Source: an uncultured Bacteroidales bacterium (GTDB taxonomy: Bacteria > Bacteroidota > Bacteroidia > Bacteroidales > UBA932). From it: DNA of 64,000 bases. Position numbers and translations under genes: made by a program. How positions within the stretch are numbered: the first letter of the stretch is position 1; each line of letters starts with the position of its first letter. A model generated the notes under the pieces. That model had not been told where the DNA came from. It ran no database searches and was given only the letters and a program-made list of their open reading frames with translations. This document shows, piece after piece, positions 41,924 to 56,400 of this stretch. The stretch lies in NCBI GenBank assembly GCA_944326255.1, contig CALVDG010000008.1, forward strand, positions 1 to 64,000, given 5' to 3'.

Positions 41924-44182
41924 TCAATAGATGTACTCCACATCGGACTTCTTGAAACGCAGGATACGGGTGTCCTTGGTACCGGCTCCGTTCTTGTTGA
42001 GATAGAACACATCCATGCTGCCGGCCATATACCACCCCTCCCCTGCCGGAGAATGTACTCCGAAGAGGATGTTGTTGTAATGATTGGAATGCTGGATACC
42101 GGCATCGTTCCACTGGGCTCCGGGACCGTACCAGACCACCGGCTCGTATTCCGGATAGTCAGGAGAGGACATGGCTACATAATACAGGCCGGATATGGTC
42201 TGCGTACCTACAGTCACATTGTCCTTGCGTTTCTGCTCCCGGCGGATGACATCGTGTCCCTCCCAGGGTGTCCGGAGGCGGTGCGTACCGTTCCACATCA
42301 GCCAGACATAGTCCGTAGCATCGAACACCCGGTTGAAATCCTCCATCGACGGCAGCTCGTAACCGTCCGGAGAAAGGGCATCCGCGGGGAGTTTGTTGAT
42401 ATGCTCGGCCACGCTCGTGCTGAAGCCGTCCATCACCAGCACTCCGTCGTGGTCCACCACCCTCATACCCTGTCCGCTGCCGCCCTGATAAGCCCACTGC
42501 CACAGGCCCCGGTACTCTTCGGCACTGCATGATGTCAGATAGTCAAACACGCTCAGACCTGCAGCCGCTGCCGGATCCTCCGACGAGAGTATCTGGTCCT
42601 CAAAACTGCGGGAATCGCCCATAGCATTGTACTTGCACCACCACACTCCGTGAAGCCATGTGACCGGCAGGCCGTAATTGCGGCGGGTGAACGTATATTC
42701 CTCTGTCAGAGCCCCGTCAGAGATAACGATTACTGCGGACTGGCGGCGTCCGTCCGCCGTAGGATCATTGGGCCGCCAGCCGCCCAGCACCCGCCAGCGG
42801 TTGTCTCCGAGACTCTCCAACTTCGCCCAAGGGTCCTCTCCGGGCGGAAAATCAAGAGCTATGCTGCTGCCGTCCGGAATAGTCAGCACTCCGAGCTCAT
42901 TGTCCACATAACGGCCGAAGTCGTAGGCATAATCTCCTGTGCTGAAATCCATTTCTCCCTCCAGCAGGACTGGATTGGGCGAAAGTCTCAAAGCTATACG
43001 ATCATCGGGATACACCTGCTTCAATCCCTTACGGCGGAACTGAAGCGCGGTTTCAGAGCCGTTGACTCCCGGAGCATACAGGGCCTTGCTTATCCGGAAG
43101 CGGTTCATATCCTCCACTCCAGCATACGGCAGAGGCTCCACCTCCAGCAAGAGTCCTTCAGCCGAGACCAGTTCCAGTTCCTCGTCGCTGTCCACTTTTA
43201 TGACAAAATCCGATGCAAAATGAGGCAGAACCAGCGTCCTGCCTCCATCCACTGCCTCAACCCCGGAGGGCAGGCCACTGCCGGAGATGTCCACGGCAAT
43301 GGCCCTGCTTCTATCCGGCGTCAACTCGGTGTCGCCGCCGGAGTTCCAGTCCTCGAAGGTAATATCCAGCGTCACGTCTATATTGTCCTTACGGACTGTA
43401 AGAGTATAGACCGTGTTGCGGAGCACGTCACCCGAAAGGGTCTTGGTCAGAGTGTACGGTCTGCCGTCCAGCATGGCCTCCACCTCCACTTCTATACCGT
43501 CATTGTCCTGTTCGTAAAGATACATTACGGCAGGAGTATCAGATGTAAGAGGCTCGTCAAAAGTCACTTGAGCCACATCCCTGGTCACATCCGCAGGAGA
43601 ATATTCTCCCTCCACCGGGAAAATATAGGCGGACTGGGCCACATTGCGGAATGTCACGCTGGTCACGGACGCATCACCCGCCGTCCTGAGCTGCAGGTCA
43701 AAACGGGCCACTCCGCGGCGCAGACTTACCGGAATCTCTGTCTGGGAAGAGCCCATGCCGTCCAGGCCGACGCTTCCGCTGAAGAAATGCGCCGGACCGC
43801 CACGGTTGGTCGCCAGCCCCAGCCGCAGCCATTCTTCCTCGGTGATATCCGCCGACTGCAGGGCCGTAAGGTCCACCAGGCCGCCGGTGTTGGCCAGCAC
43901 ATACATATTGCCGGAATGCCCGGTCACCTTTATCTCGTAAGTGCTGCCCGACACGGGAATGTTCTCATATACGGCCGTCATACGCCCGCCCTCGAATATA
44001 CAGGCCTGAAGGTCGCCGACAGTATTCTCCCCGTCCAGAAGCAGACCGGAGCCGTCATACCCGGACACGGTCGCCCTTACGGTTCTCTCTCCTCCGGGCA
44101 TCGGAGAAGGTCTTTCCTCTACGTTACATGCGGATGCCAGCACAAGCGACATCACAAACACAGTTGTCAAAGTCTTTTTCAT
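41924..44182 (-). CDS. Fimbrillin-like lipoprotein
   Basis: A 752-residue lipoprotein with lipobox ASAC near residue 19. The N-terminal half follows the fimbrillin (FimB/Mfa2-like) pattern: VSLRRGVARFDLQL, ALKTLSGDVLRN-like and NTVYTLTVRKDNIDVTLDI, typical of Mfa-type subunits. The C-terminal half has the motifs VLGGWRPNDPTADGR, YGLPVTWLHGVWWCKYNAMG and YGPGAQWND ending in VEYIY, shared with its neighbour at 44222. That half resembles the C-terminal modules of surface proteins and possibly binds a ligand. It is the last gene of a three-gene lipoprotein operon. Confidence 0.75.
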   Translation of the reverse strand: MKKTLTTVFVMSLVLASACNVEERPSPMPGGERTVRATVSGYDGSGLLLDGENTVGDLQACIFEGGRMTAVYENIPVSGSTYEIKVTGHSGNMYVLANTGGLVDLTALQSADITEEEWLRLGLATNRGGPAHFFSGSVGLDGMGSSQTEIPVSLRRGVARFDLQLRTAGDASVTSVTFRNVAQSAYIFPVEGEYSPADVTRDVAQVTFDEPLTSDTPAVMYLYEQDNDGIEVEVEAMLDGRPYTLTKTLSGDVLRNTVYTLTVRKDNIDVTLDITFEDWNSGGDTELTPDRSRAIAVDISGSGLPSGVEAVDGGRTLVLPHFASDFVIKVDSDEELELVSAEGLLLEVEPLPYAGVEDMNRFRISKALYAPGVNGSETALQFRRKGLKQVYPDDRIALRLSPNPVLLEGEMDFSTGDYAYDFGRYVDNELGVLTIPDGSSIALDFPPGEDPWAKLESLGDNRWRVLGGWRPNDPTADGRRQSAVIVISDGALTEEYTFTRRNYGLPVTWLHGVWWCKYNAMGDSRSFEDQILSSEDPAAAAGLSVFDYLTSCSAEEYRGLWQWAYQGGSGQGMRVVDHDGVLVMDGFSTSVAEHINKLPADALSPDGYELPSMEDFNRVFDATDYVWLMWNGTHRLRTPWEGHDVIRREQKRKDNVTVGTQTISGLYYVAMSSPDYPEYEPVVWYGPGAQWNDAGIQHSNHYNNILFGVHSPAGEGWYMAGSMDVFYLNKNGAGTKDTRILRFKKSDVEYIY

Positions 44183-44221
44183 TTTTTAAATTTTTAAAAG
44201 TTTATAAAAAACGGTTATGAT

Positions 44222-46402
44222 TTAATAAATGTATTCCACAGGTGTCTTGACGCACCTTATCGTGCGGGTCTTGGTATTGTTGTGGGCCACGTATTTCAGC
44301 CAGTTCTGACCGGGACGGTCCGAAGAGGCGTAGCCTTCAAGCCCCCAGCTGCGGCCCGCCGCCCCGTGAGTGGCCAGCAGGATGTTCATACGGGCCACAT
44401 TGCCTGCAGTAGTGTTCCACTGATGTCCGGGACCATACAGCACCCATGTGCCTCCGTCACTGCTGAACTCATAGAAGGCCACTGTTCCATAGTCGTGTCC
44501 GAGAAATTCCGCCTGCCTTTCCGCGATGGTGACAGTTATCTGCTTGCCGACCCGGTTGGTGAAAGTACGGGTGCCGGTGCCGCCCAAGTTGTAGTCGTCG
44601 CTGGCGGCCAGGAAGGCAAAGTCCTCATAGGACGGTATCCGATAGCCGTCAGGGGCCATGACCGCAGGATCCAGCAGACCGAAATCCCCTCCCGAGGATT
44701 TCATGCCCTCGTAATAGTAGAGACTTCCGTCGTGACTGAGCCGGAGTCCGTCCGGATTGCCGGCCTGATACTGGTCCCCCATAAGCCCGAGCAGACTGTC
44801 GCCAGGCAGGGCAAGCAGCATGTCCATAAGTGCATCTGCTGCCACGGGTATCTCCGCGCAGGTTATCTGGTCCTCGAAGCTGCGGGCATTGCCCCGGAGA
44901 TTGAAGAGCGTCCACCATGTATCGCCGATCCTGGCCACCGGCAGCCCCCAGTTGAGCCGCCTCACAGGATAAGCCTCCCGCGCACCGCCTTCCTCATCCG
45001 AGATGACCAGCAGGCCCTCCTGCATACGGCCGTCCGCCGTCGGATCATTGGGACGCCATCCGCCCAATATCCGGTATATACGGACACCATCCCATTCCCG
45101 CATGAGATCTGCTCTCATCCAGGCATCCTCTTCTCCCTCAAACTCCACGCTCACCGTCTTACCGGCAGGCACCGTCACCGTGCCCAGCTTCCCGTCCACA
45201 TACCGGCCGAAATCACAGATTCCGTCACCGTCCAAGGCCAGCATACCGCCGAGTCTTACAGGACTGGCCTCGAATACAACCACTATACGGCCTGTCTGCA
45301 CGCCGTCCTGACGGACATTGACATAGACCCTCTCAGTCACGCTGCCCGGCATACGGAAGTCTCCGGTCACACGGAGTCCGCCATCGGCATATTCCACTGC
45401 CCCTTCCGTAGTAGTGCCCTCGACAGACACCTCCGAACCCGGAGCGGCGGACAGAGCCAGAAAAGACACACTTCCGGTATACGCCACGAAGACACTGTCC
45501 CCTCTGTCATTGACCCTCACGCCGCCGTCGAATACGGAATTGCACGTATCCACCACCGCTGCCGGAACATGCTCCGAACCCGAAGACGGTCCCTGAGCCC
45601 AACTCTCGCTGAGCACCGTTGCAGAAAGCCCCGCCCCGTTGCCGGTCACGCTGACAGTATAGGTATTGTTCCGCTCCAGCACCTGAGGCAGACTCACCCT
45701 CAGCCGGTGCAGCCCGCCGTCCAGCCTGGCTGTCACCCCCACCACCGCTCCCTGACCGGACTGCTCGGGTACATAGGCCGCCACATCACTGCCGCCGCGC
45801 AGAGGAGCATCGGCGTAATCCCGGACAATCCTCATCTGCGCGGCTGTCTTCGGCACGGCGATATCCGCCTGAGGCATCACATACCCCTCCCCATACAGTC
45901 CGTTTATCTCCACGGACAGCACCTCCACCCCGGCCTCCAAGACAGCCACGTCTATCCGGGCCACACTCCGGCGCATACTCACCGGAAGCATCCGGGGAGT
46001 GTCTTCATTGAGGAGCACCACACCTGTCATCAGCAGACCGCGCCCGGTCATTTCCTCAACTGTCGCCGTAAGAGCCAGGAATTCATCCTCGCGCACTGCT
46101 TCGGGAAGCAGGGCTGTCATAGCCTCCAAGGCCGAGGAATTGGCCAGCAGGTACAGTCTGCCCGGTATCTTTTCCAATGACACACCGTAAGCATCCTGCC
46201 CCTGAAGCGGCTCCGCCTCCACGACTTCCCGGAGCAGTCCGTCCTCAAACCTGAAAGCGGTCACGTCGTGTACTTCCGTTGCCGGCACATCCATCCTGAC
46301 TGCCAGGGTTTCAGGCCGCCCTGTCCGCACAGCCTCGTCCACCGGAGAGCATCCGTGGAGCAATATGGCCGCCGTTACTGTTGCACTGATATACTTTCTC
46401 AT
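44222..46402 (-). CDS. Fimbrillin-like lipoprotein, paralogue
   Basis: A 726-residue lipoprotein with lipobox LLHGC. The ATG at 46402 is chosen because it begins the signal peptide; an in-frame start at 46444 would place 14 extra residues before it. Like its neighbour, it has MRRSVARIDVAV (fimbrillin-like) in the first half, ILGGWRPNDPTADGRMQ, YGPGHQWNT and VEYIY in the second half. The two are tandem paralogues, about 39 bp apart. Its start lies 2 bp from the stop of the metalloprotease gene, so it is probably translated from the same message. Surface-exposed pilus-tip or adhesin role is plausible. Confidence 0.75.
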   Translation of the reverse strand: MRKYISATVTAAILLHGCSPVDEAVRTGRPETLAVRMDVPATEVHDVTAFRFEDGLLREVVEAEPLQGQDAYGVSLEKIPGRLYLLANSSALEAMTALLPEAVREDEFLALTATVEEMTGRGLLMTGVVLLNEDTPRMLPVSMRRSVARIDVAVLEAGVEVLSVEINGLYGEGYVMPQADIAVPKTAAQMRIVRDYADAPLRGGSDVAAYVPEQSGQGAVVGVTARLDGGLHRLRVSLPQVLERNNTYTVSVTGNGAGLSATVLSESWAQGPSSGSEHVPAAVVDTCNSVFDGGVRVNDRGDSVFVAYTGSVSFLALSAAPGSEVSVEGTTTEGAVEYADGGLRVTGDFRMPGSVTERVYVNVRQDGVQTGRIVVVFEASPVRLGGMLALDGDGICDFGRYVDGKLGTVTVPAGKTVSVEFEGEEDAWMRADLMREWDGVRIYRILGGWRPNDPTADGRMQEGLLVISDEEGGAREAYPVRRLNWGLPVARIGDTWWTLFNLRGNARSFEDQITCAEIPVAADALMDMLLALPGDSLLGLMGDQYQAGNPDGLRLSHDGSLYYYEGMKSSGGDFGLLDPAVMAPDGYRIPSYEDFAFLAASDDYNLGGTGTRTFTNRVGKQITVTIAERQAEFLGHDYGTVAFYEFSSDGGTWVLYGPGHQWNTTAGNVARMNILLATHGAAGRSWGLEGYASSDRPGQNWLKYVAHNNTKTRTIRCVKTPVEYIY

Positions 46403-46404
46403 CG

Positions 46405-48264
46405 CTATTGATATATGCTCGGATTTGCCTTGCTGTTGAGCCAATGTGGAGACTCAACCGGCATCTCCGAAAGGTGATTGATATAAAAATTGTTCATAAG
46501 TTCCTGAGCCCACGGCCCGTAGGTAAAGGAACTGCTGTGACTGTAACCCATCACATGCCCGAGCTCGTGAAACATGACCTCACAGGCATAAGCGGAGGTG
46601 TAATGTTCCAGCCAGCCGGCCTGCCATGCCCCGAAGGTACTGCCGCCTCCGAGTCCTACTACTCCATTGCCGGGATAGACCAGCCCGACATTGATGGTGC
46701 GCTGCTGCCTCATCTGGGCCAGCACAGTCTCCACCGGCACCTTGTCGTCCACACCGCCGTTGCCATAGAGCCGGTCCTGATTGGCCCGGAGTATCTCCTC
46801 ATGCTCCGGCATGTCTATCATATAGGTAAAATTGAGGAAGAAAGCCACGGCCTCCCGGCAATGCACCGGTCTTATGCCCATCCAGTTACCCTGAGGCTTG
46901 CCGTCCGCCTGGGTCGGGTCGCCGCCGAAGAGGTCGAAGCGTATGTTCCAGCCGTGCTCGATCCTGCTCAGCTTGTCCCAGTACGGATCGCCGGATACTA
47001 TCCTGAAATCCGCATCGGACAGCTGGGCCGCCGTCAACTGAGGCAGCTCCACTATCCTGCCCGATTCGGTGCGGTATACACCGGGGGCGGACAGGGCCGG
47101 AATCTCTCCGTAGAAATCCGCAAAGGCCGGGATGCTGTCAAAATAAGCCAGGTCCACATACTCGTTCCCGACAGACGGTATACGGGCGCGTATCAGCACA
47201 GCTTCCAACGGTTTCGGCGAATAGAAGCGTACACTCAGCAGTTCATCGCCGGTCACCGAGACCTGAAGCGGCCTGGCCGTGTTGAAGTTGCGCAGGGTCT
47301 TGTCCGTATAGATACTGTACGGCTCGTCATCCTGAAGGATAAGGCCGTGTCCGCCCGCCGCATACGCCTTGTCGGTGATGAACATCGTTCCGCTGCCGTC
47401 ATCCGGGTGTTCAGGGTCCACCGACACGGATGTTATATGGTTGGTCCTGACGGCCTCCACTGTAAAGCCGTATTCTCTTCGGACAGTCTCCCCGACATAT
47501 GTGCGCGAGACCGTCTCCACCTGTCCTGCAGAGCCTCCACCTTCCACTGTGGGCACCATGAAATAGCTCCGGCCGGCCATCAGGTCCAGCGTCACCGCCC
47601 GGCCGGCCGTAGTTCCTGCAAAAGTTCCGTCCACAGTCAGGCCGGTATAGAACGCGGGAGACTCCAGAACCGCCACAGCAGAAAGCAATGCCCATTCAGT
47701 ATACTGATTGCGGAAATTGAGAGTCATGTCCAACCGGCCGATTATCCTTTCCTGCGTGATGGTCTCCGGCAAGTCGGACACCATCACCACTCCGTCAGGG
47801 CTGTTCTGAGGCCAGACAGAAAAGGCCGTAGAGGAATAGAAATACTCCGACCCGACGACCCCGCCCTCCGGGAAACTTATCCACACATCGGATACACTGC
47901 CGGCATGAGCGAAACTCACCCCGTCCCCGTCCGCGTCTCCTCTAACCCCGGCGATCATAAGACGGTAGTCCCCGGGCCGGATTCCCTCTATATATACAGA
48001 GGCATCGCGTTTCTCATAGTACGCCTTGATATTGCCGACCACAGTACCGGCATCATCCGCCACCAAGAGTTCCACCCTGTCGTAGTCAGCCGTCGCGGCC
48101 GCCTTGGTGCGGGTAGTGCCGTCTCCGAACTCATAATACCGCAGGCCCACAGCGAGCCTGTCTCCGCACGGCTCTTCCGACGGACGGGGCCGTTCTTCCA
48201 CAGAACACGACATCAGCAGTGTCACAAGAGCCGGAATAATTAGTATATTCGCATAACTTTTCAT
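46405..48264 (-). CDS. Metzincin-like zinc metalloprotease lipoprotein
   Basis: A 619-residue lipoprotein with lipobox LMSC. The C-terminal part carries the zinc site FHELGHVMGYSHSS (HExxHxxGxxH, about 572-582), typical of metzincins. It resembles the Bacteroides BF0631-type metalloproteinase lipoproteins. The N-terminal half contains fimbrillin-like, beta-rich sequence (for example RLDMTLNFRNQYTEW), so the protein joins a pilus-like or adhesive front to a protease. The ATG at 48264 starts the signal peptide. It is the first gene of the three-lipoprotein operon and has a promoter with a Crp/Fnr-like palindrome. It may process surface proteins, including the paralogues downstream. Confidence 0.82.
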   Translation of the reverse strand: MKSYANILIIPALVTLLMSCSVEERPRPSEEPCGDRLAVGLRYYEFGDGTTRTKAAATADYDRVELLVADDAGTVVGNIKAYYEKRDASVYIEGIRPGDYRLMIAGVRGDADGDGVSFAHAGSVSDVWISFPEGGVVGSEYFYSSTAFSVWPQNSPDGVVMVSDLPETITQERIIGRLDMTLNFRNQYTEWALLSAVAVLESPAFYTGLTVDGTFAGTTAGRAVTLDLMAGRSYFMVPTVEGGGSAGQVETVSRTYVGETVRREYGFTVEAVRTNHITSVSVDPEHPDDGSGTMFITDKAYAAGGHGLILQDDEPYSIYTDKTLRNFNTARPLQVSVTGDELLSVRFYSPKPLEAVLIRARIPSVGNEYVDLAYFDSIPAFADFYGEIPALSAPGVYRTESGRIVELPQLTAAQLSDADFRIVSGDPYWDKLSRIEHGWNIRFDLFGGDPTQADGKPQGNWMGIRPVHCREAVAFFLNFTYMIDMPEHEEILRANQDRLYGNGGVDDKVPVETVLAQMRQQRTINVGLVYPGNGVVGLGGGSTFGAWQAGWLEHYTSAYACEVMFHELGHVMGYSHSSSFTYGPWAQELMNNFYINHLSEMPVESPHWLNSKANPSIYQ

Positions 48265-48272
48265 AACGGGTG

Positions 48273-48280
48273 CAAAAATA
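48273..48280 (-). promoter_or_regulatory. -7 box of the lipoprotein operon
   Basis: TATTTTTG on the minus strand, 8 bp before the start at 48264. No -33 TTTG is present at the expected place, which is where the palindrome at 48303-48316 begins; this fits an activator-dependent promoter. Confidence 0.6.
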
Positions 48281-48302
48281 TTCCGGCCCGCAGCCATTTT
48301 CC

Positions 48303-48316
48303 GTAACATATGTTAC
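48303..48316. promoter_or_regulatory. Perfect 14-bp palindrome, likely Crp/Fnr-type operator
   Basis: GTAACATATGTTAC is a perfect palindrome centred between the two divergent starts, 39 bp from the lipoprotein start and 30 bp from the regulator start. The layout resembles a dimer site of the adjacent Crp/Fnr-family protein. Confidence 0.7.
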
Positions 48317-48345: not shown

Positions 48346-48960
48346 ATGGATTGCGACATTTACAGCCTCCCACTCTTTTCCGGAGGAGATAAAGAACTAA
48401 TAAACAACATCCTGCAGGAGAATCCCGCAAGACACAGACTTTATGCCAAAGGAGACATCATCGCCCTTCAGGGCTATGTCTGCAAGCAGCTTTACCTGCT
48501 GTGCAGCGGCAGTGCATACGCCAGGATGGTCAGCGAGGAAGGCAAGGAATTCACTCTGGACACCCTGAGCGCACCGGAAGTGCTTGCATCGGCATTCCTG
48601 TTCAGCACCGAGGGCATTTTCCCCGTCACCATCATCGCGGCCTCGGACTGCAGCATCCGGCTCATAAGCCGGGAAGCCATGCTGCGCATCCTGAAAGCCG
48701 ACCAGAGAGTGATGCAGAACTACCTGAGAGTCATTTCCGACCACAGTATGTTCTTGAGCAACCGGCTGGTGGAATTTGCCCTGCAGACCCTCTCTTCCCG
48801 CATCGTAAGCTATATTGAGAGCAACGGGCCCATCACCAACCTGCAGGAGACCGCCTTCATCCTCGGCGTAGCCCGTCCGTCCCTCTCCAGAGCCGTCTCC
48901 CAGCTCGTCGCACAGGGCACCCTCGTCAAGACCGCCCAGGGCTACGCCCTCTCCGCCTGA
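48346..48960 (+). CDS. Crp/Fnr-family transcription regulator
   Basis: A 204-residue regulator. The N-terminal cyclic-nucleotide-binding fold (about 20-110) has KGDIIALQGYVCKQLYLLCS. The effector helix is about 113-140. The C-terminal HTH (about 155-204) contains NLQETAFILGVARPSLSRAV. Cysteines are present in the N-terminal domain (VCKQLYLLC), but the cysteine cluster of Fnr is absent, so oxygen sensing by Fe-S is not implied. It is divergent from the lipoprotein operon and probably controls it and itself through the palindrome at 48303-48316. Confidence 0.88.
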   Translation: MDCDIYSLPLFSGGDKELINNILQENPARHRLYAKGDIIALQGYVCKQLYLLCSGSAYARMVSEEGKEFTLDTLSAPEVLASAFLFSTEGIFPVTIIAASDCSIRLISREAMLRILKADQRVMQNYLRVISDHSMFLSNRLVEFALQTLSSRIVSYIESNGPITNLQETAFILGVARPSLSRAVSQLVAQGTLVKTAQGYALSA

Positions 48961-49058: not shown

Positions 49059-49066
49059 TAATTTTG
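49059..49066 (+). promoter_or_regulatory. Candidate -7 box of the channel/SIR2-TIR/STAND operon
   Basis: TAATTTTG matches TAnnTTTG and lies 29 bp before the ATG at 49096. No clear -33 TTTG at 19-20 nt. Confidence 0.45.
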
Positions 49067-49095: not shown

Positions 49096-51228
49096 ATGAA
49101 AATAATCATTGACATAATCGGAGTCATCGGCATACTTTACTGGCTGCTGACCTTATTTGTATTGATCAGAAGGCCCATTCTGAGAGACCGCTGCATCATC
49201 AACGGATTCACCAAATACGTACTTCTGCTGGTAGTCCTGACCCCTTTCGCCATGGAGTTTATCGTCTCCAACTGCTGCGGCATGGTATCTCCAAGAGAAC
49301 TGGTTTACACCCCGGACCTGTATAAAGCTCCGGACAATCAGCTTTCCGATACCATCAGAGCCAGACAGGAGGATCCATCCTGGCTATGGGGCATTTATTA
49401 TCTGATGATCGATCCCGGCAACCAGCATATGACGACATCGCAACCAGGCAGGGCCGTGGGTGTAATCATGGCTATCCTGGGCGTTTTCCTGCTGAACGGC
49501 CTGCTTGTATCCACTTTGATGAGTTGGTTTGACCGCAGAAAGGAGAGATGGCTGAAAGGCGAGATCCGATACCGGAATCTGAAAGGCCATACCGTCATAA
49601 TAGGAAGCGGCCCAACCGTATCGGGAATAGTCAGGCAGATAACAGACAGAAAGGGATATGTACTGATCATGACTTCCTGCGACGTCGAGACTTTCAGAAG
49701 GGAACTGTTCTCTGTTCTCCCTGAGTCCGAGCATAAGAAAATAATACTGTATTACGGAGACAGCAGCTCTGAAAAAGATATCCGCAGCCTCCGCATAGAT
49801 GCTTCTGTGGAAGTCTACGTGATAGGAGAGATTTCAGATCAGGATGATACAGGTGCCTGCGCAGACATATCCAACATGAGATGCCTCCAATTAATCGCCT
49901 CATGCTGTTCCGGGATGGAAGGACGCATCACATGCCGCGCCATGTTTGAATCTCAGACTACGCACTCTGTTTTTCAGTTTTCAGACATAAGTGACACTCT
50001 TAAGGCGCACATTGACTTCAAGCCGTTCAACTTCTATGAGCAATGGGCCCGCAACGTACTGGTCAACTGGCCAGGCAAACTGTCATCACGCAGGTACCTG
50101 CCTCTGGAAGGAGAGAACGGCATATCGGCTGACAGTCGAGACCAGGTCATACTGTTTATCGCCGGCATGACCCGCATGGGCCTTGCGATGGCCGTGGAAG
50201 CCGCTCATCTGGCTCATTATCCCAACTTTGCAACAAAAGGGATAAAAACCCGGATCTCATTCATAGACATAAACGCCGAACAGGAGGCCCGGTCTTTCAT
50301 TTCCAGATTCAACGGACTGTTCCGCAATTCATCATGGCGCATCACAGATGCCGGATCATACGACAGCGGCCAATGGCACATTCCGGAAGGTGCCGGCTGG
50401 CTTGGCGATGATGTCACGGATGTGGAATGGGAATTCATCAAAGGCGACATTGACGACCCGGCCATACGCAACCTGCTCTCAGCGTCAGCCGGCCGCACCG
50501 AGACAAGGATGACAGTGGCTGTATGTTCCGACAATCCGGACAAAGCCGCTGCATCAACATTATATCTTCCGGACGAAGTGCTCCATAAAGCCGTCCAGAT
50601 ACTGGTTTACCAGAGAAAAGGCGCATCGGTAATAGACAGCATCTCCAAAGACTGCGCGGGCAACACTGTCTACCGAAGCGTTCATCCGTTCGGAATGGCT
50701 GCTGAATGTTATGACAAAGCTGTCATTCAGGCCTCGGAAGACATAGCACTGAGACTTTCCCAAGCATATGCGGAAACATGTACGGCACTTGGCCACAACC
50801 GTTCCAGCACCGGCCACGACAACACATCCGGCAAACAGTACAAAGGGAAATCCGCTGCCGCAAAATGGTGGTCCAATATATACAACGCAGATACAGTATG
50901 GTCAAAACTGCGTTCAATAAATTATAAGGGTGGAAAAATATCCGACAATGACGACATACTTGCCAGAACCGAGCACAGCAGATGGAATATGGAACAGCTG
51001 CTGATGAGATTCCGTCCACTGACTCTGGAGGAGCAGAAGGAACTGCTGAACGGCAATCTGGACAAGGAGGCTCTGAAAGGAGAACGGATGGCTCATTCCA
51101 ACATATGCTCATGGGAAAGGTTGAAAGAAATCGATCCGGATGCCATACTATATGACAAAGCCATGATAGAGGCTCTGCCGGAAGTATATGAATACACATT
51201 GACTGCACATGGGAAGGATAGCAAATAA
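49096..51228 (+). CDS. CASTOR/POLLUX-like channel with RCK-type domains and C-terminal RyR domain
   Basis: A 710-residue membrane protein. TM1 is about 4-24, TM2 about 41-57, then a pore-loop-like segment WLWGIYYLMIDPGNQ (97-110) and TM3 about 118-142. The DPGNQ sequence recalls the D-x-GNH filter of plant CASTOR/POLLUX channels (recalled, not computed). Two Rossmann/RCK-like domains follow: HTVIIGSGPTVSG (165-177) and VILFIAGMTRMGLAMA (351-366) with acidic RISFIDIN. The C-terminus (about 620-700) is a RyR domain: ILARTEHSRWNMEQLLM, HSNICSWERL and YDKAMIEALPEVY. A nucleotide-gated channel is plausible. First gene of a three-gene operon, overlapping the next by 20 bp. A/T-richer codon choice (more ATA and AGA) than the housekeeping neighbours hints at transfer. 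Confidence 0.82.
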   Translation: MKIIIDIIGVIGILYWLLTLFVLIRRPILRDRCIINGFTKYVLLLVVLTPFAMEFIVSNCCGMVSPRELVYTPDLYKAPDNQLSDTIRARQEDPSWLWGIYYLMIDPGNQHMTTSQPGRAVGVIMAILGVFLLNGLLVSTLMSWFDRRKERWLKGEIRYRNLKGHTVIIGSGPTVSGIVRQITDRKGYVLIMTSCDVETFRRELFSVLPESEHKKIILYYGDSSSEKDIRSLRIDASVEVYVIGEISDQDDTGACADISNMRCLQLIASCCSGMEGRITCRAMFESQTTHSVFQFSDISDTLKAHIDFKPFNFYEQWARNVLVNWPGKLSSRRYLPLEGENGISADSRDQVILFIAGMTRMGLAMAVEAAHLAHYPNFATKGIKTRISFIDINAEQEARSFISRFNGLFRNSSWRITDAGSYDSGQWHIPEGAGWLGDDVTDVEWEFIKGDIDDPAIRNLLSASAGRTETRMTVAVCSDNPDKAAASTLYLPDEVLHKAVQILVYQRKGASVIDSISKDCAGNTVYRSVHPFGMAAECYDKAVIQASEDIALRLSQAYAETCTALGHNRSSTGHDNTSGKQYKGKSAAAKWWSNIYNADTVWSKLRSINYKGGKISDNDDILARTEHSRWNMEQLLMRFRPLTLEEQKELLNGNLDKEALKGERMAHSNICSWERLKEIDPDAILYDKAMIEALPEVYEYTLTAHGKDSK

Positions 51229-52504
51229 CCATCAGGACACCCGGGATCTGGCGCTTACGGATCTATGCTGTGACATATATCAGGGGGATTATGTTCTTGT
51301 AATCGGAGGCGACGTGATACTAAAGCCCGAATACGCCGGTGGCAACTCCCAGAACTACATCATTCAGGACTATATCAACAACGAGTGTCTTAACAGCAAC
51401 AGAAAGTATCTGGAGCGGAGCTCCCAGGAGCATAAAATAAGAATAAGGGACATTCTCAGAAACGAGTGGAGATACGACAGGGAGGAACTTTCAGAAGACC
51501 TCATCTCCCTGTTGTCCACAAAATGCTTCCGAATTGTAATCACTACTGCGTTTGACGGTTATCTGGAGACTTTAATGCGCAGCATATATGGAGATTCACT
51601 CCGGGTAATGAATATTTACGACACAAAGGACATCAAGTCCTTCTGTCATACCTCAGAATACAATGCAATACCTCCGACCCTATATTATGCTTTCGGAAAA
51701 GCCGACTCAGGCTACGACTATGTGCTTTCAGAAAACGATGCGATAAAAGCCATATCCAGATGGCTGGGCAACTATGCTCCCACGGATATGATAGATTATC
51801 TCAAAGGAAAGAAGATACTGGCCATAGGCTGCAAGTTCGACGACTGGTATTTCCGGTTCTTCTGGTACTGCCTGAGACAGGACTTCGAGCATCTTTCAGG
51901 AGATGTCGCAATATCTCTCCAGACAGACAAGTCCGAGTCAGACCGGCATCTCGCTGAATATCTCGCCAAAATCAATGTCGGAGACAAGGGTAACTCCCAA
52001 CGGTTCATACATGAGCTCAGCCTCCAGCTTCACGATCCGGAGAACAATGTATACAGCAAATACCGCAACAGACTTATGACCGGCGGTGTTTTCATCTCAT
52101 ATGCCTCGGAGGACTTTCCCATTGTCTGTCAGATTTATTCCATACTGAACCGTTCCGGCATTAGAGTATGGTTTGATGACAAGGAGCTCAACGGAGGAGA
52201 CCGATATGACATACGGATATCCAACGCCATCAGTGAATGCCGTATCTTCATACCTGTCCTCAGTGCTCAGACCAAGTATGACATCGACAACAAAAGACAG
52301 CGTTACTACAAAGATGTAGAGTGGAAAGCAATAGAAGACAATAAGACATGTGCGATACTGCCTCTTACCTTAAGCGGTTTCGACATCAGGTATGACAGAG
52401 ACTTTGTCCCTGAGATATTCCTTGAAGAGACCTCAGTAAACTGGACAAAAGACGGAGGAGAAGGTATACTGAACGCCATAAACAGATTAATGAGGCAGTC
52501 ATGA
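51209..52504 (+). CDS. SIR2-like/TIR fusion protein
   Basis: A 431-residue cytoplasmic protein. The N-terminal SIR2-like part (about 20-285) shows YVLVIGGDVI (28-37), ITTAFDGYLETL (111-122), LYYAFGKADS (158-167) and ILAIGCKFDDWYFR (203-216). Active SIR2 domains have TTN and HG at the second and third places; here these are TTA and FG, so NADase activity of this half is doubtful. The C-terminal TIR domain (about 291-430) has FISYASED (295-302) and DVEWKAIE (369-376), keeping the catalytic-position glutamate E376 and the W-x3-E spacing. It probably cleaves NAD+ or makes a cADPR-like messenger when clustered. The start overlaps the channel gene; the stop overlaps the STAND gene by ATGA. Confidence 0.85.
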   Translation: MGRIANNHQDTRDLALTDLCCDIYQGDYVLVIGGDVILKPEYAGGNSQNYIIQDYINNECLNSNRKYLERSSQEHKIRIRDILRNEWRYDREELSEDLISLLSTKCFRIVITTAFDGYLETLMRSIYGDSLRVMNIYDTKDIKSFCHTSEYNAIPPTLYYAFGKADSGYDYVLSENDAIKAISRWLGNYAPTDMIDYLKGKKILAIGCKFDDWYFRFFWYCLRQDFEHLSGDVAISLQTDKSESDRHLAEYLAKINVGDKGNSQRFIHELSLQLHDPENNVYSKYRNRLMTGGVFISYASEDFPIVCQIYSILNRSGIRVWFDDKELNGGDRYDIRISNAISECRIFIPVLSAQTKYDIDNKRQRYYKDVEWKAIEDNKTCAILPLTLSGFDIRYDRDFVPEIFLEETSVNWTKDGGEGILNAINRLMRQS

Positions 52505-55500
52505 TACAGAATCCATGGAAAGGACTGGCTCCGTACAGAGAGCCGAAAGACACCGATGAGAGCTCATATCTGTTCTGCGGAAGGGACAAGGCTGCACGGG
52601 AACTGACCTCGCTGATTAAAAGCAGTCTGTTCGTCACATTATACGGCAGGACGGGTGTCGGAAAGACCTCCCTTCTGGAAGCCGGCGTATTTCCCATGCT
52701 CAGACCTGCCGGATACATTCCCGTGCCCGTCCGCCTAAGTATGGACGGAGCTGACGGCAGGATGACATCCTTCGCCGGTTGTATTACTGACGCTGTCGAA
52801 CGTACGGTAAACGACATACGGCTCACAGCCGCCCCCGTGCATACAGACACATCGGACAAGGATTATCTGTGGGAATATTTTGCGACCAGGCATTTCTACG
52901 AGGGAGACCGCGAAGTGTTTCCAGTAATAGTCATAGACCAGTTTGAGGAAAATTTCTCCGTAGATAAGGAGGGGACATGGAGACTGATGGAACAGCTTCA
53001 TTCCCTTATGGATGACAATAAGATATACCCTGACAATTACCATAATGAGACCATATTCAGGATTGTTCTGTCCATCAGAGAAGATGACCTCTACCGTCTT
53101 GAGGACTGCATTGACCAATTAAATCTTAATGATTTCAAATTCAACCGTTACCGTCTGACCCAACTTTCCGATGACGAGGCAAGGGAAATAATAGTCATCC
53201 CCGGAGCCGGTATCCTGCCGGTCAATGAAAACGACAGGGAAACAGTTGTCAGGGCCATAATAAAAGTAGTCAAGGACGGGAACGACGGAAACATAAACAC
53301 CCTGATACTGTCCCTGGTATGCAGTGTACTCTACGACAGAATCAAGGAAAAGGACAGCGATATCATAACCCTTGACGATGTCCATAATCTGGGCACCAAC
53401 CCTCTGAAAGACTTTTACCTGTCCATCGCTGCAGGATTCCACAAGTACCGGTCATATATTGAGGACAGACTTGTTGATGCGGACGGAAGACGCAACTCTG
53501 TTCACCGGGAGGAGATGAGCCGTAACTTCCCATACTGGGAATCCCTGCTTACAGGCAGTAAACGGATACTCCAATGCTCCAACGACAAAGTAGAGCTTAT
53601 TCACGACATGCTCGCCAGAGCGATATATGATGTCAGGCTGCAAAGGGACAATAAGAGAAAAAGCCGTATTGCCCGCATAAGCATACTGATGTTTCTCGCC
53701 GCAGCCTTTGTCTTCGCTGTTTTCAGTACCGTATACGACATCAGCGGAAAAGACCATACCAGGCTCCAGGCTTTCCCCAGAGAAGGTATCGTCACGGACT
53801 CCGGTTTTTTCAGCGACAACCGCACGGAAAAGCTTGTCTGGGAGGGCACAGGTGCTTTGGAAATATCCCATTGTCCGTCGCTCAGACATATTGTCATATC
53901 CAATCCTGCGACATACATTCATATCAATGACTGTCCGAATCTGACTACTATTGAATTTCCATGCGAATCGGTATCTTCCCTGAACATAAGTAACTGCCCG
54001 AATATAAGGAATCTCAATATTCCCGAACAGATCAGCAGTATAAACACATACGGCACTACACGTATAAACAGCATCATACCTCCGGACAGTCACAGATATG
54101 AATGGCTGGACGGCATACTCTGGGACATACAGCGTAAGAAAGTGGTATTCATATCCGATGACAGGAATATAAGCAACGGTATCTGCTTCCCATATGAGAT
54201 GAGAGACCGTCCCTACTACATCTACAGCGCCAGTGACACCCTGCGCAACACCGGCATATGGATAGATAATCTGCTCTTCACCCGGGATTCTTCCAGAATC
54301 ATATCTTCCATAAATCCCCTTGGCCCTGTCCTTGATCTCAACAAGTATCCGGGCCTCACCTATATTGAGAGCAATGCTTTCCATAAAGGCAACGGCATCC
54401 GCAAGCTGATCCTGAAAAAAGGGCTGAGCCTGTTCTCGTCCAGATCCTTTGACAGCCTCAGCGAACTGGACACTATTGAAGCTCCGGAGAATACCGCTTT
54501 GTTTGACATTGTATCCAAAAGAAAAATAACATATGTAACGGACGGGAATGACACATACAACAACACCTGCGGAATCATCAGAAGGAACGGGGAACCGGTA
54601 TGGATATCGTCCGAATATCCGGACGATGTCTATACAGAAGGATCGCTGCAGGACCTCAATGGTCTGACGATACTCTCTCCCGGATTTTACTGCCGGGCCG
54701 TAAATTTCAACGGAAATATAACCGTTACACTGAACGGAGGAATCACTGACCCTGAGATTGCCGGGAAGATATCCGCTCTTACTTCCGTTTTTGACATAAT
54801 CAACTACCGCGGCAATTCATTTTTCAAAACCACTCAGGGCAGTTCATACGCTTCCGTACTGAGTCCTTCATCCCGTACCCTGCATATTCCCCCGGACATT
54901 CATATTCTGGATTGTTCCGGAATCTCTCCGCAAACAAACGACATCATCATTGAAAGTACAGAATTTGACAGATTTCTCAATCTGCCCGACTCTTTAAGGC
55001 GAAGAATATCCATATACGTTCCGTTCGGACATCAGAACTCATTCCTCAACAGAGAGGAATTCAAACAATTCCGGTCAATAAACAAGACGGATTTATGCTC
55101 CACTCTTTATTACAATGTCACTTATTTAGTATATCGGGCATACCACACTTTACATGAAAGGCCAGGATTGACCGTCATGCTTACAGCAGGCCTTCTGATT
55201 ATATGCATACTGTTCTATATCCTGAACACGACACGTTATATAAGGAGATTCCAAGACAGAAAAGTCCTTATTATAAGGAGCTGTGTTTCCAGCCTGATAA
55301 TGACCCTGATCACTTTATTCAGTTGGATTGTGGCTTTCTGGCTCATAAGGTATGCCTTCAACACTGAGACCTACTGGGTATGTGTCACAGGAGCGTCCAT
55401 CTTCGCAATATCAGTACTGTTCTCCTTATATTACAGTACTCTTATGGAATTCAAGAAGCTTAAGGCCGGCAGTATTATGCTCTCATGCCTGAAAAACATC

Positions 55501-56400
55501 CGTCATGCTACTGCCGGAATCATCATCAGAATGCTGTCTGCCGTCAAGGATTTCTGCAGAGTTCACAAGTCTCTGCTCCGCATTTTCTCAGCGGTACTGG
55601 TGGCTGTCACTGCCATCATATGCATATACCTTATAAGTTACAGCAGGTCTGAGCGCAGATTACTCGCGGAAGTTCAAGCACTTGCGTCAAGCAGAAATAC
55701 TGCCGGAAAAGAAAAGGCCCTGGCAATGCTGACTGAGTATCTGGATAAAGACAGCAGCATAATCAAGACATCTTCCTCCAAAGCCTTTGACATACTGCTG
55801 GACTTGGCAAGAGAACTTCAGTATGATTATATAACCGGCATTCCCGCAGCAGACTGTAAAGATGACGATATAGTCTATTCGCGTGACAGTTCTATATATG
55901 CAGAGATATCCGAAAACGGTGTCATAACGCTATGGGGAGCAGAATCAGAACAGTTCGGACAAAAGATAGAATTTCACAAAACAGCTACGGATATCGACAT
56001 AAGTCAGGACGGCACAATGATTACAGCCGCATGTGGAGATATTCTTACTGATTATGACATTGCAGTTTACAATATCAGAAGCAAGATGTCCTACTCCATC
56101 TACTGCGGATTTCCGATAGAAGATATATGTTTCAGCCCTGACAACAGATATATCGCCACAGGTTGCTCCGACAGATATGTAAGGATATGGGATTTATCAC
56201 TCAGCCCAGTGGAATGCACCCGTAAACTGAAGACAGACAGCTACAACGACATACGCAGGATATATTTCAGCGATAACGGAAAACTGCTGTATGTATGCCT
56301 TAACAACGGGACTATGGACATCTGGAGTCTCGATGACCGTCCTGACAGCCAATTTATATTGGAAGCCTGCCGCAGTCATCTGGACAGACGGAACCGCTAG
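52501..56400 (+). CDS. Membrane-anchored STAND NTPase with LRR and WD40-like repeats
   Basis: A 1299-residue protein. An nSTAND1-like NTPase (about 1-380) opens with NPWKGLAPYREP and FCGRDKAARELTSL, Walker A LYGRTGVGKTSL (47-58) and Walker B VIVIDQFEE (142-150), ending in a winged-helix-like LIHDMLARAIYDV (366-378). TM1 is about 391-411. Leucine-rich, BspA-like repeats (about 435-700) include LEISHCPSLRHIVI, HINDCPNLTTIEF and LNISNCPNIRNLNI. Four more TM segments lie at about 890-1050, and WD40-like repeats follow (about 1110-1299: NGVITLWG, DRYVRIWDLS, MDIWSLDD). This is an NLR-like sensor with ligand-sensing repeats on a membrane scaffold. It is coupled to the SIR2-TIR gene by an ATGA overlap. 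It ends 4 bp inside the convergent ABC-F gene. Confidence 0.85.
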   Translation: MIQNPWKGLAPYREPKDTDESSYLFCGRDKAARELTSLIKSSLFVTLYGRTGVGKTSLLEAGVFPMLRPAGYIPVPVRLSMDGADGRMTSFAGCITDAVERTVNDIRLTAAPVHTDTSDKDYLWEYFATRHFYEGDREVFPVIVIDQFEENFSVDKEGTWRLMEQLHSLMDDNKIYPDNYHNETIFRIVLSIREDDLYRLEDCIDQLNLNDFKFNRYRLTQLSDDEAREIIVIPGAGILPVNENDRETVVRAIIKVVKDGNDGNINTLILSLVCSVLYDRIKEKDSDIITLDDVHNLGTNPLKDFYLSIAAGFHKYRSYIEDRLVDADGRRNSVHREEMSRNFPYWESLLTGSKRILQCSNDKVELIHDMLARAIYDVRLQRDNKRKSRIARISILMFLAAAFVFAVFSTVYDISGKDHTRLQAFPREGIVTDSGFFSDNRTEKLVWEGTGALEISHCPSLRHIVISNPATYIHINDCPNLTTIEFPCESVSSLNISNCPNIRNLNIPEQISSINTYGTTRINSIIPPDSHRYEWLDGILWDIQRKKVVFISDDRNISNGICFPYEMRDRPYYIYSASDTLRNTGIWIDNLLFTRDSSRIISSINPLGPVLDLNKYPGLTYIESNAFHKGNGIRKLILKKGLSLFSSRSFDSLSELDTIEAPENTALFDIVSKRKITYVTDGNDTYNNTCGIIRRNGEPVWISSEYPDDVYTEGSLQDLNGLTILSPGFYCRAVNFNGNITVTLNGGITDPEIAGKISALTSVFDIINYRGNSFFKTTQGSSYASVLSPSSRTLHIPPDIHILDCSGISPQTNDIIIESTEFDRFLNLPDSLRRRISIYVPFGHQNSFLNREEFKQFRSINKTDLCSTLYYNVTYLVYRAYHTLHERPGLTVMLTAGLLIICILFYILNTTRYIRRFQDRKVLIIRSCVSSLIMTLITLFSWIVAFWLIRYAFNTETYWVCVTGASIFAISVLFSLYYSTLMEFKKLKAGSIMLSCLKNIRHATAGIIIRMLSAVKDFCRVHKSLLRIFSAVLVAVTAIICIYLISYSRSERRLLAEVQALASSRNTAGKEKALAMLTEYLDKDSSIIKTSSSKAFDILLDLARELQYDYITGIPAADCKDDDIVYSRDSSIYAEISENGVITLWGAESEQFGQKIEFHKTATDIDISQDGTMITAACGDILTDYDIAVYNIRSKMSYSIYCGFPIEDICFSPDNRYIATGCSDRYVRIWDLSLSPVECTRKLKTDSYNDIRRIYFSDNGKLLYVCLNNGTMDIWSLDDRPDSQFILEACRSHLDRRNR

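Follow-up and report, generated by a model that had tools for sequence, protein, structure and literature searches.

The stretch of DNA analysed here (the window) comprises 64,000 nucleotides from an uncultured Bacteroidales bacterium (assembly GCA_944326255.1, contig CALVDG010000008.1) and carries on its forward strand a mobile operon of three overlapping genes, which encode a predicted CASTOR/DMI1-type ion channel with a C-terminal RyR-like domain, a fusion of a SIR2-like and a TIR domain (SIR2L-TIR), and a membrane-anchored STAND NTPase. The most probable reading, which we favour with some reserve, is that of an abortive-type immune operon acting in outline from the STAND protein through the TIR domain and an ADP-ribose (ADPR)-type signal to the RyR-like-gated channel. 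A stricter version, in which a cyclic ADPR (cADPR) isomer made by the TIR domain would open a Ca2+-permeable CASTOR-like channel, and small RyR proteins of relatives would serve as sponges or off-switches, is put forward more tentatively and falls somewhat short of an even chance.

Organization, recurrence and mobility of the operon

Gene 1 (49096..51228, + strand, 710 amino acids (aa)) encodes the channel with its C-terminal RyR-like domain, as recognized from the open reading frame (ORF), profile and structural model. Gene 2 (51209..52504, +, 431 aa; ORF, Pfam and model) encodes the SIR2-like/TIR fusion, and gene 3 (52501..56400, +, 1299 aa; ORF and Pfam) the membrane-anchored nSTAND1 NTPase with LRR_5 and WD40 matches. 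Genes 1 and 2 overlap by 20 bases and genes 2 and 3 by 4 bases (ATGA), exactly as a first-pass annotation made from the sequence alone had stated, and the genome G047 keeps both coding overlaps (17 and 4 bases). All three are genuine genes, coupled in translation.

Among 200 genomes of the family, channel homologues were found in 23 (five of these matches cover the RyR-like tail only), SIR2L-TIR in five and the STAND gene of the operon in three. The three genes are contiguous in G047 (L055), with 62, 84 and 64% identity to the window operon, and adjacent in L086 (small RyR gene between), L114 and L134 (small RyR gene after STAND), while SIR2L-TIR lies near the channel as a partial set in L069, L073 and L117. 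Co-occurrence outside the window genome, which the first-pass annotation had proposed to look for, was thus found: four further Bacteroidales lineages have the set side by side, and another three have part of it. Additionally, in G099 a SIR2L-TIR/STAND pair lies about 11 kb from the channel and adjoins a truncated, RyR-like channel relative. In a tree of 77 channels, the eight that are linked to SIR2L-TIR fall in scattered places; the link changes state 7 times, at least six of these changes being forced by well-supported branches, and such repeated joining argues for function.

At 78 distinct channel loci, TIR genes were 3-fold enriched near the channel compared with genes farther out at the same loci (p 0.0035), and 14 of the 27 TIR matches of 18 channel genomes were no farther than 25 kb from the channel, against an expectation of about 0.5 from genome sizes. 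SIR2L and nSTAND1 near the channel were too few at these 78 loci for significance (p 0.06). In an order-wide search a STAND gene followed SIR2L-TIR in 10 of 12 homologues, and four of the 12 loci also had a RyR or channel gene. Pairs of SIR2L-TIR and STAND genes with no RyR gene nearby were observed at L149, L151, L152, L155, L159 and L160. Two further loci may be mentioned: an island that packs six TIR matches, two RyR genes and a RyR channel into about 23 kb (G042:C16:16003-39007, partly L037), and, adjoining a RyR channel in G023, a 1000-aa PPDK_N-domain protein together with an EcoRII-type restriction enzyme (L028:11694-15892).

The operon is horizontally acquired and mobile. Its guanine-plus-cytosine (GC) content is 47.1% against 53.7% elsewhere in the window, changing abruptly at its borders, and in the genomes G132 and G088 the flanking CRP-like and ABC-F genes are directly adjacent, the insertion site being empty. 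In G168 (L166:4505-13498), a third sister genome, about 9 kb occupy this site and include JetB-, JetC- and JetD-like genes together with an MkoA-like helicase, a Wadjet-like arrangement; relative to ABC-F, the three-gene operon of G047 lies on that side too. The site next to ABC-F is a small defence hotspot common to the Wadjet-like system and the window operon. Purifying selection on the operon genes was found between G000 and G047 (proportion of nonsynonymous differences, pN, 0.09-0.25; of synonymous differences, pS, >0.7 and saturated). With their patchy distribution and with empty sites in sister genomes, the genes are not fixed housekeeping genes.

The channel and its RyR-like domain

The channel protein of the window gave no Pfam match at E<=1. 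With a profile of 26 channel homologues, CASTOR (8e-5), DMI1 (1.7e-4), BK and GsuK were matched among solved structures. In a fold search with the AlphaFold model (predicted local distance difference test, pLDDT, 85.9; predicted template modelling score, pTM, 0.82) the gating ring matched DMI1 (Z 19.6, 302 residues, 3.4 Å), GsuK (Z 18.5, 363 residues, 6.9 Å) and CASTOR (Z 17.9, 320 residues, 3.6 Å); the matches listed span residues 12-641 and hence take in little of the RyR-like part. Two RCK-type domains (about residues 163-545; 49582..50730, +) were placed by model, fold and the Pfam matches of homologues, 20 of the 26 matching Slo-like_RCK and six TrkA_N, and neither the window channel nor its homologues matched Castor_Poll_mid or another curated CASTOR/POLLUX family in Pfam. 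By its tandem RCK ring, as judged from profile and model, gene 1 is assigned to the CASTOR/DMI1-type RCK-gated channels.

The pore-loop filter DPGNQ (residues 106-110; 49411..49425, +) was located by homologue alignment, its D106 position being Asp in 21 and Asn in five of the 26 homologues. Plant CASTOR is Ca2+-selective; its filter reads AD265S(A)GNHA, and the mutation D265N leaves it without current (PMC6697748). Because the filter of the window channel resembles that of CASTOR, a Ca2+-permeable pore is the first guess and is probable, and Ca2+ entry would be at least as likely as depolarisation on opening of the channel. The channel shares with the plant channels CASTOR/POLLUX/DMI1 (PMC6697748) and with GsuK two RCK domains in a CASTOR-like ring by fold, and a filter of the form D-x-G-N instead of TVGYG; it differs from this group in its extra RyR-like domain, an identity of only about 10%, and its occurrence in bacteria and in immune-type operons. 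In a comparison of window positions 49096-49545 with L025, channel residues 1-150 are 88-96% identical to G047, whereas the RCK region is mostly 34-56% identical; this unevenness points either to mosaicism or to strong constraint on the pore.

The C-terminal domain (about residues 619-697; 50950..51186, +) is likely a divergent RyR-like ligand domain, delimited by alignment and hhalign. At the channel C-terminus the best-matching family was PF02026 (RyR), found in eight of the 26 homologues (best E 3e-5), and hhalign of the channel C-terminus against neighbouring canonical RyR proteins gave a Prob of 81% or 66%, depending on the choice of columns, and set H627, W630, H667 and D687 onto the RyR ligand residues. 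These four residues are identical in all 26 channels. In the phage protein RyDEP the corresponding H75, W78, H100 and D117 hold the cyclic ADPR signal 2'/3'cADPR (PMC13232231). The channel domain therefore has the same His, Trp, His and Asp ligand residues as the RyDEP/PF02026 proteins; unlike RyDEP, which is a phage counter-defence enzyme or sponge, it is encoded by the host and built into an ion channel, and its middle segment is 15 residues longer. The RCK and RyR domains that the first-pass annotation had assigned to this protein escaped detection in the single sequence and were recovered at the level of the family. In two relatives a canonical PF02026 domain is fused to the channel itself, C-terminally in L104:1654-4035 (E 1.8e-37) and N-terminally in L095:9617-12124 (E 1.2e-33).

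Small canonical RyR proteins beside the channels

Stand-alone RyR proteins of 95-105 aa adjoin the channel at most loci (e.g. L107:12072-12380, L096:9511-9810 and L106:8673-8957). They pass the PF02026 cut-off (1e-31 to 1e-36), align with all four RyR repeats of the animal ryanodine receptors with close similarity, and show a ligand-residue spacing of +3, +25 and +42, exactly that of RyDEP. Canonical RyR genes were found in 23 of the 200 family genomes, among them 15 of the 18 in which the channel match extends beyond the tail, and in 14 of those 15 the gene lies within about 3 kb of the channel. A small RyR gene was present within four genes of the channel at 49 of the 78 channel loci, a 7.6-fold enrichment compared with genes farther out (p 9e-9). 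Since RyDEP homologues include both signal sponges and signal-cleaving proteins (PMC13232231), the small RyR proteins of relatives could, by analogy, be built-in sponges or signal-cleaving off-switches. No separate RyR gene was found in the window genome, which is about 90% complete; no control genome gave a match either. Three channel genomes lack a canonical RyR gene; the window genome and G047 are two of them, and each has the TIR/STAND pair instead.

The SIR2-like/TIR fusion and the STAND protein

Protein 2 matched TIR_2 (8.6e-14) and SIR2_2 (5.8e-6) in Pfam. In its model (pLDDT 76.7) the SIR2 part resembles KomC, ThsA and DSR2 (fold Z about 16-17) and the TIR part SARM1, AbTir and RUN1 (Z about 14). 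The TIR call of the first-pass annotation accordingly passed the profile search, and both domains of the fusion were recovered by Pfam and by fold, with the correction that the SIR2-like domain (51233..52039, +) lacks both catalytic residues, having A114 for Asn and F162 for His. For this assignment the residue register was fixed against SPARSA N142 and KomC, of which the deposited KomBC mutant chain reads TTAYD and the wild-type chain TTNYD. In an alignment of eight homologues the window protein has Ala at the Asn position, where relatives have Thr, Ser or Val, and all eight rows have Phe at the position of the catalytic His. Because both residues are lost, and because N142A or H186A abolishes the NADase activity of SPARSA (PMC10781750), the SIR2 part is predicted to be catalytically dead and should be a scaffold or ligand pocket; it retains the fold of the SIR2 NADases ThsA, DSR2, KomC and SPARSA. 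A role as a second active NADase was considered and ruled out, the catalytic Asn and His being gone in all aligned homologues.

The TIR domain (52076..52501, +), delimited by TIR_2, is predicted to be intact. Its E371 (52319-52321) is the predicted catalytic Glu by motif and by its invariance in the eight homologues, and profile matches to AbTIR, BtTIR, TIR-1 and SARM1 ranged from 1.7e-12 to 7e-7.

Protein 3 matched nSTAND1 (PF20703, 1e-21), WD40 (3.7e-12) and LRR_5 (1e-7), which bears out the earlier description of a 1299-residue STAND NTPase with leucine-rich repeats (LRR) and WD40 repeats. The nSTAND1 NTPase domain (residues 5-386; 52513..53658, +), with the Walker A motif GRTGVGKT, is followed immediately by a first transmembrane (TM) segment (residues 393-411; 53677..53733, +), a BspA-type LRR region (about residues 457-889; 53869..55167, +), four more TM segments, and the WD40 part (about residues 1124-1278; 55870..56334, +; Pfam), the five TM segments being placed at residues 393, 890, 931, 958 and 1028. 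Nearly every SIR2L-TIR-linked STAND protein has a TM segment at about residues 390-480, right after the NTPase, and those of L086 and L134 likewise contain nSTAND1, LRR_5 and WD40. From hydropathy and charge the LRR region, identified by LRR_5, is predicted to be extracytoplasmic, and such a location would fit the sensing of an event at the envelope.

Proposed mechanism and alternative explanations

In the proposed mechanism the membrane-anchored STAND protein would detect an attack, probably in part via its extracytoplasmic LRR/WD40 parts, and would oligomerise and activate SIR2L-TIR, whose dead SIR2 domain would act as a scaffold or ligand pocket. The TIR domain would then convert nicotinamide adenine dinucleotide (NAD+) into an ADPR-type messenger, RyR-like domains on the gating ring of the tetrameric channel would bind this messenger and open the CASTOR-like cation pore, and the open pore, probably Ca2+-permeable, would upset the ion balance and stop the infected cell, which may confer protection against phage. 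This chain from STAND protein to TIR domain, RyR domain and channel, already sketched in the first-pass annotation, is one that we infer; it is plausible, and the discovery that 2'/3'cADPR is a ligand of RyR domains (PMC13232231) lends it external support.

Several observations weigh against this reading. PF02026 was not matched at E<=1 by the window channel, and a profile search of the PDB with its C-terminal domain found no RyR, so that the RyR call failed on the window protein and stands at the family level only; moreover, the conserved RyR-like residues could also make the domain a hydrolase. A TIR gene lies within four genes at just 22 of the 78 channel loci, and for eight of the 12 order-wide SIR2L-TIR homologues, six of them followed by a STAND gene, no RyR gene lies closer than about 9 kb. 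Because of these eight loci SIR2L-TIR/STAND is regarded as a module able to take other partners, the RyR-free pairs being the same generator module with other effectors; no common alternative effector was seen among the partner genes beside them.

NAD+ depletion by many bacterial TIR domains is established, and the STAND-activated TIR domain might merely destroy NAD+, with the channel as a secondary regulator whose RCK/RyR-like ring reads the NAD+ or ADPR level. This explanation, which would be served by the six STAND-paired homologues without a RyR gene in reach and by GsuK, one of the nearest folds, having been solved bound to ADP and NAD, is nevertheless unlikely in our estimation, as it needs neither the repeated linkage of RyR channel and TIR gene nor the conserved RyR ligand residues. 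Slightly less probable still is a unit that signals in envelope stress, in ion homeostasis or in the recognition of kin, and not in phage defence, with the LRR/WD40 parts of the STAND protein reading a surface cue. The predicted extracytoplasmic sensor region would suit such a role, and channels of this family are frequent in gut Bacteroidales, often without any TIR gene, but patchiness, low GC content, vacant sites and the presence of a Wadjet-like system at this insertion site form the pattern of defence genes. That an old ion channel merely stands by chance beside a separate STAND/SIR2L-TIR pair is very improbable: pair and channel are each found without the other, yet the gene overlaps are kept in G047, the three genes are adjacent in five lineages, and the independent joins on the channel tree number at least six.

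Relation to known systems

TIR signalling to an effector is already known from Thoeris, which resembles the operon in coupling a TIR domain with a predicted intact catalytic Glu to a gene with a putative ADPR-type ligand domain, and in being mobile and patchy. In contrast to Thoeris, the effector is an RCK-gated channel with a RyR-like domain instead of a SIR2-SLOG or TM-macro ThsA (Pfam scans of the operon proteins found no SLOG or macro domain), a dedicated STAND protein is added as a third component, and the TIR domain is fused to a dead SIR2 domain. Avs and other STAND NTPases likewise have a repeat sensor region and adjoining NADase-type domains, and the SIR2-STAND protein Avs5 was among the fold matches; unlike Avs, the operon STAND protein belongs to the nSTAND1 subfamily, is membrane-anchored, and has the TIR domain on a separate protein. 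PADLOC-DB 2.0.0 gave no full-length system match for the operon, only partial TIR matches and a weak mad8 match, and none for the channel.

Among the papers searched, none described a RyR-like CASTOR-type channel effector with STAND and SIR2L-TIR, although a 2025 survey of TIR systems may already list such systems. A study of May 2026 reported binding or cleavage of 2'/3'cADPR by RyR-domain proteins of phages and left a response of RyR channels open (PMC13232231). Host RyR-like or true RyR domains on or beside channels in TIR operons make gating by cyclic ADPR directly testable. If the proposed mechanism is true, ion channels would join TIR immunity as a new effector class, the operon would likely be a bacterial equivalent of the cADPR-RyR Ca2+ pathway of animals and a simple model for the long dispute over the action of cADPR on ryanodine receptors, and phage RyDEP-type proteins would gain an obvious possible origin.

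Promoter candidate and neighbouring genes

A candidate Bacteroidetes -7 element, TAATTTTG (49059..49066, +; TAnnTTTG), lies about 30 bases before the ATG of the operon and is partly conserved in G047, where it reads GTATTTTTGC; its assignment follows from the known Bacteroidetes promoter consensus and is putative. The CRP-like gene upstream (48346-48960) was considered as a regulator of the operon and dropped, as it adjoins ABC-F in operon-free genomes too. On the opposite strand (41924-48309, -) the window contains three tandem long genes for lipoprotein-like proteins of 752, 740 and 634 aa, a cluster that is absent next to ABC-F in G047; it is situated between the Ser-tRNA region and the CRP-like gene, and two of its three genes are related, with about 28% identity.

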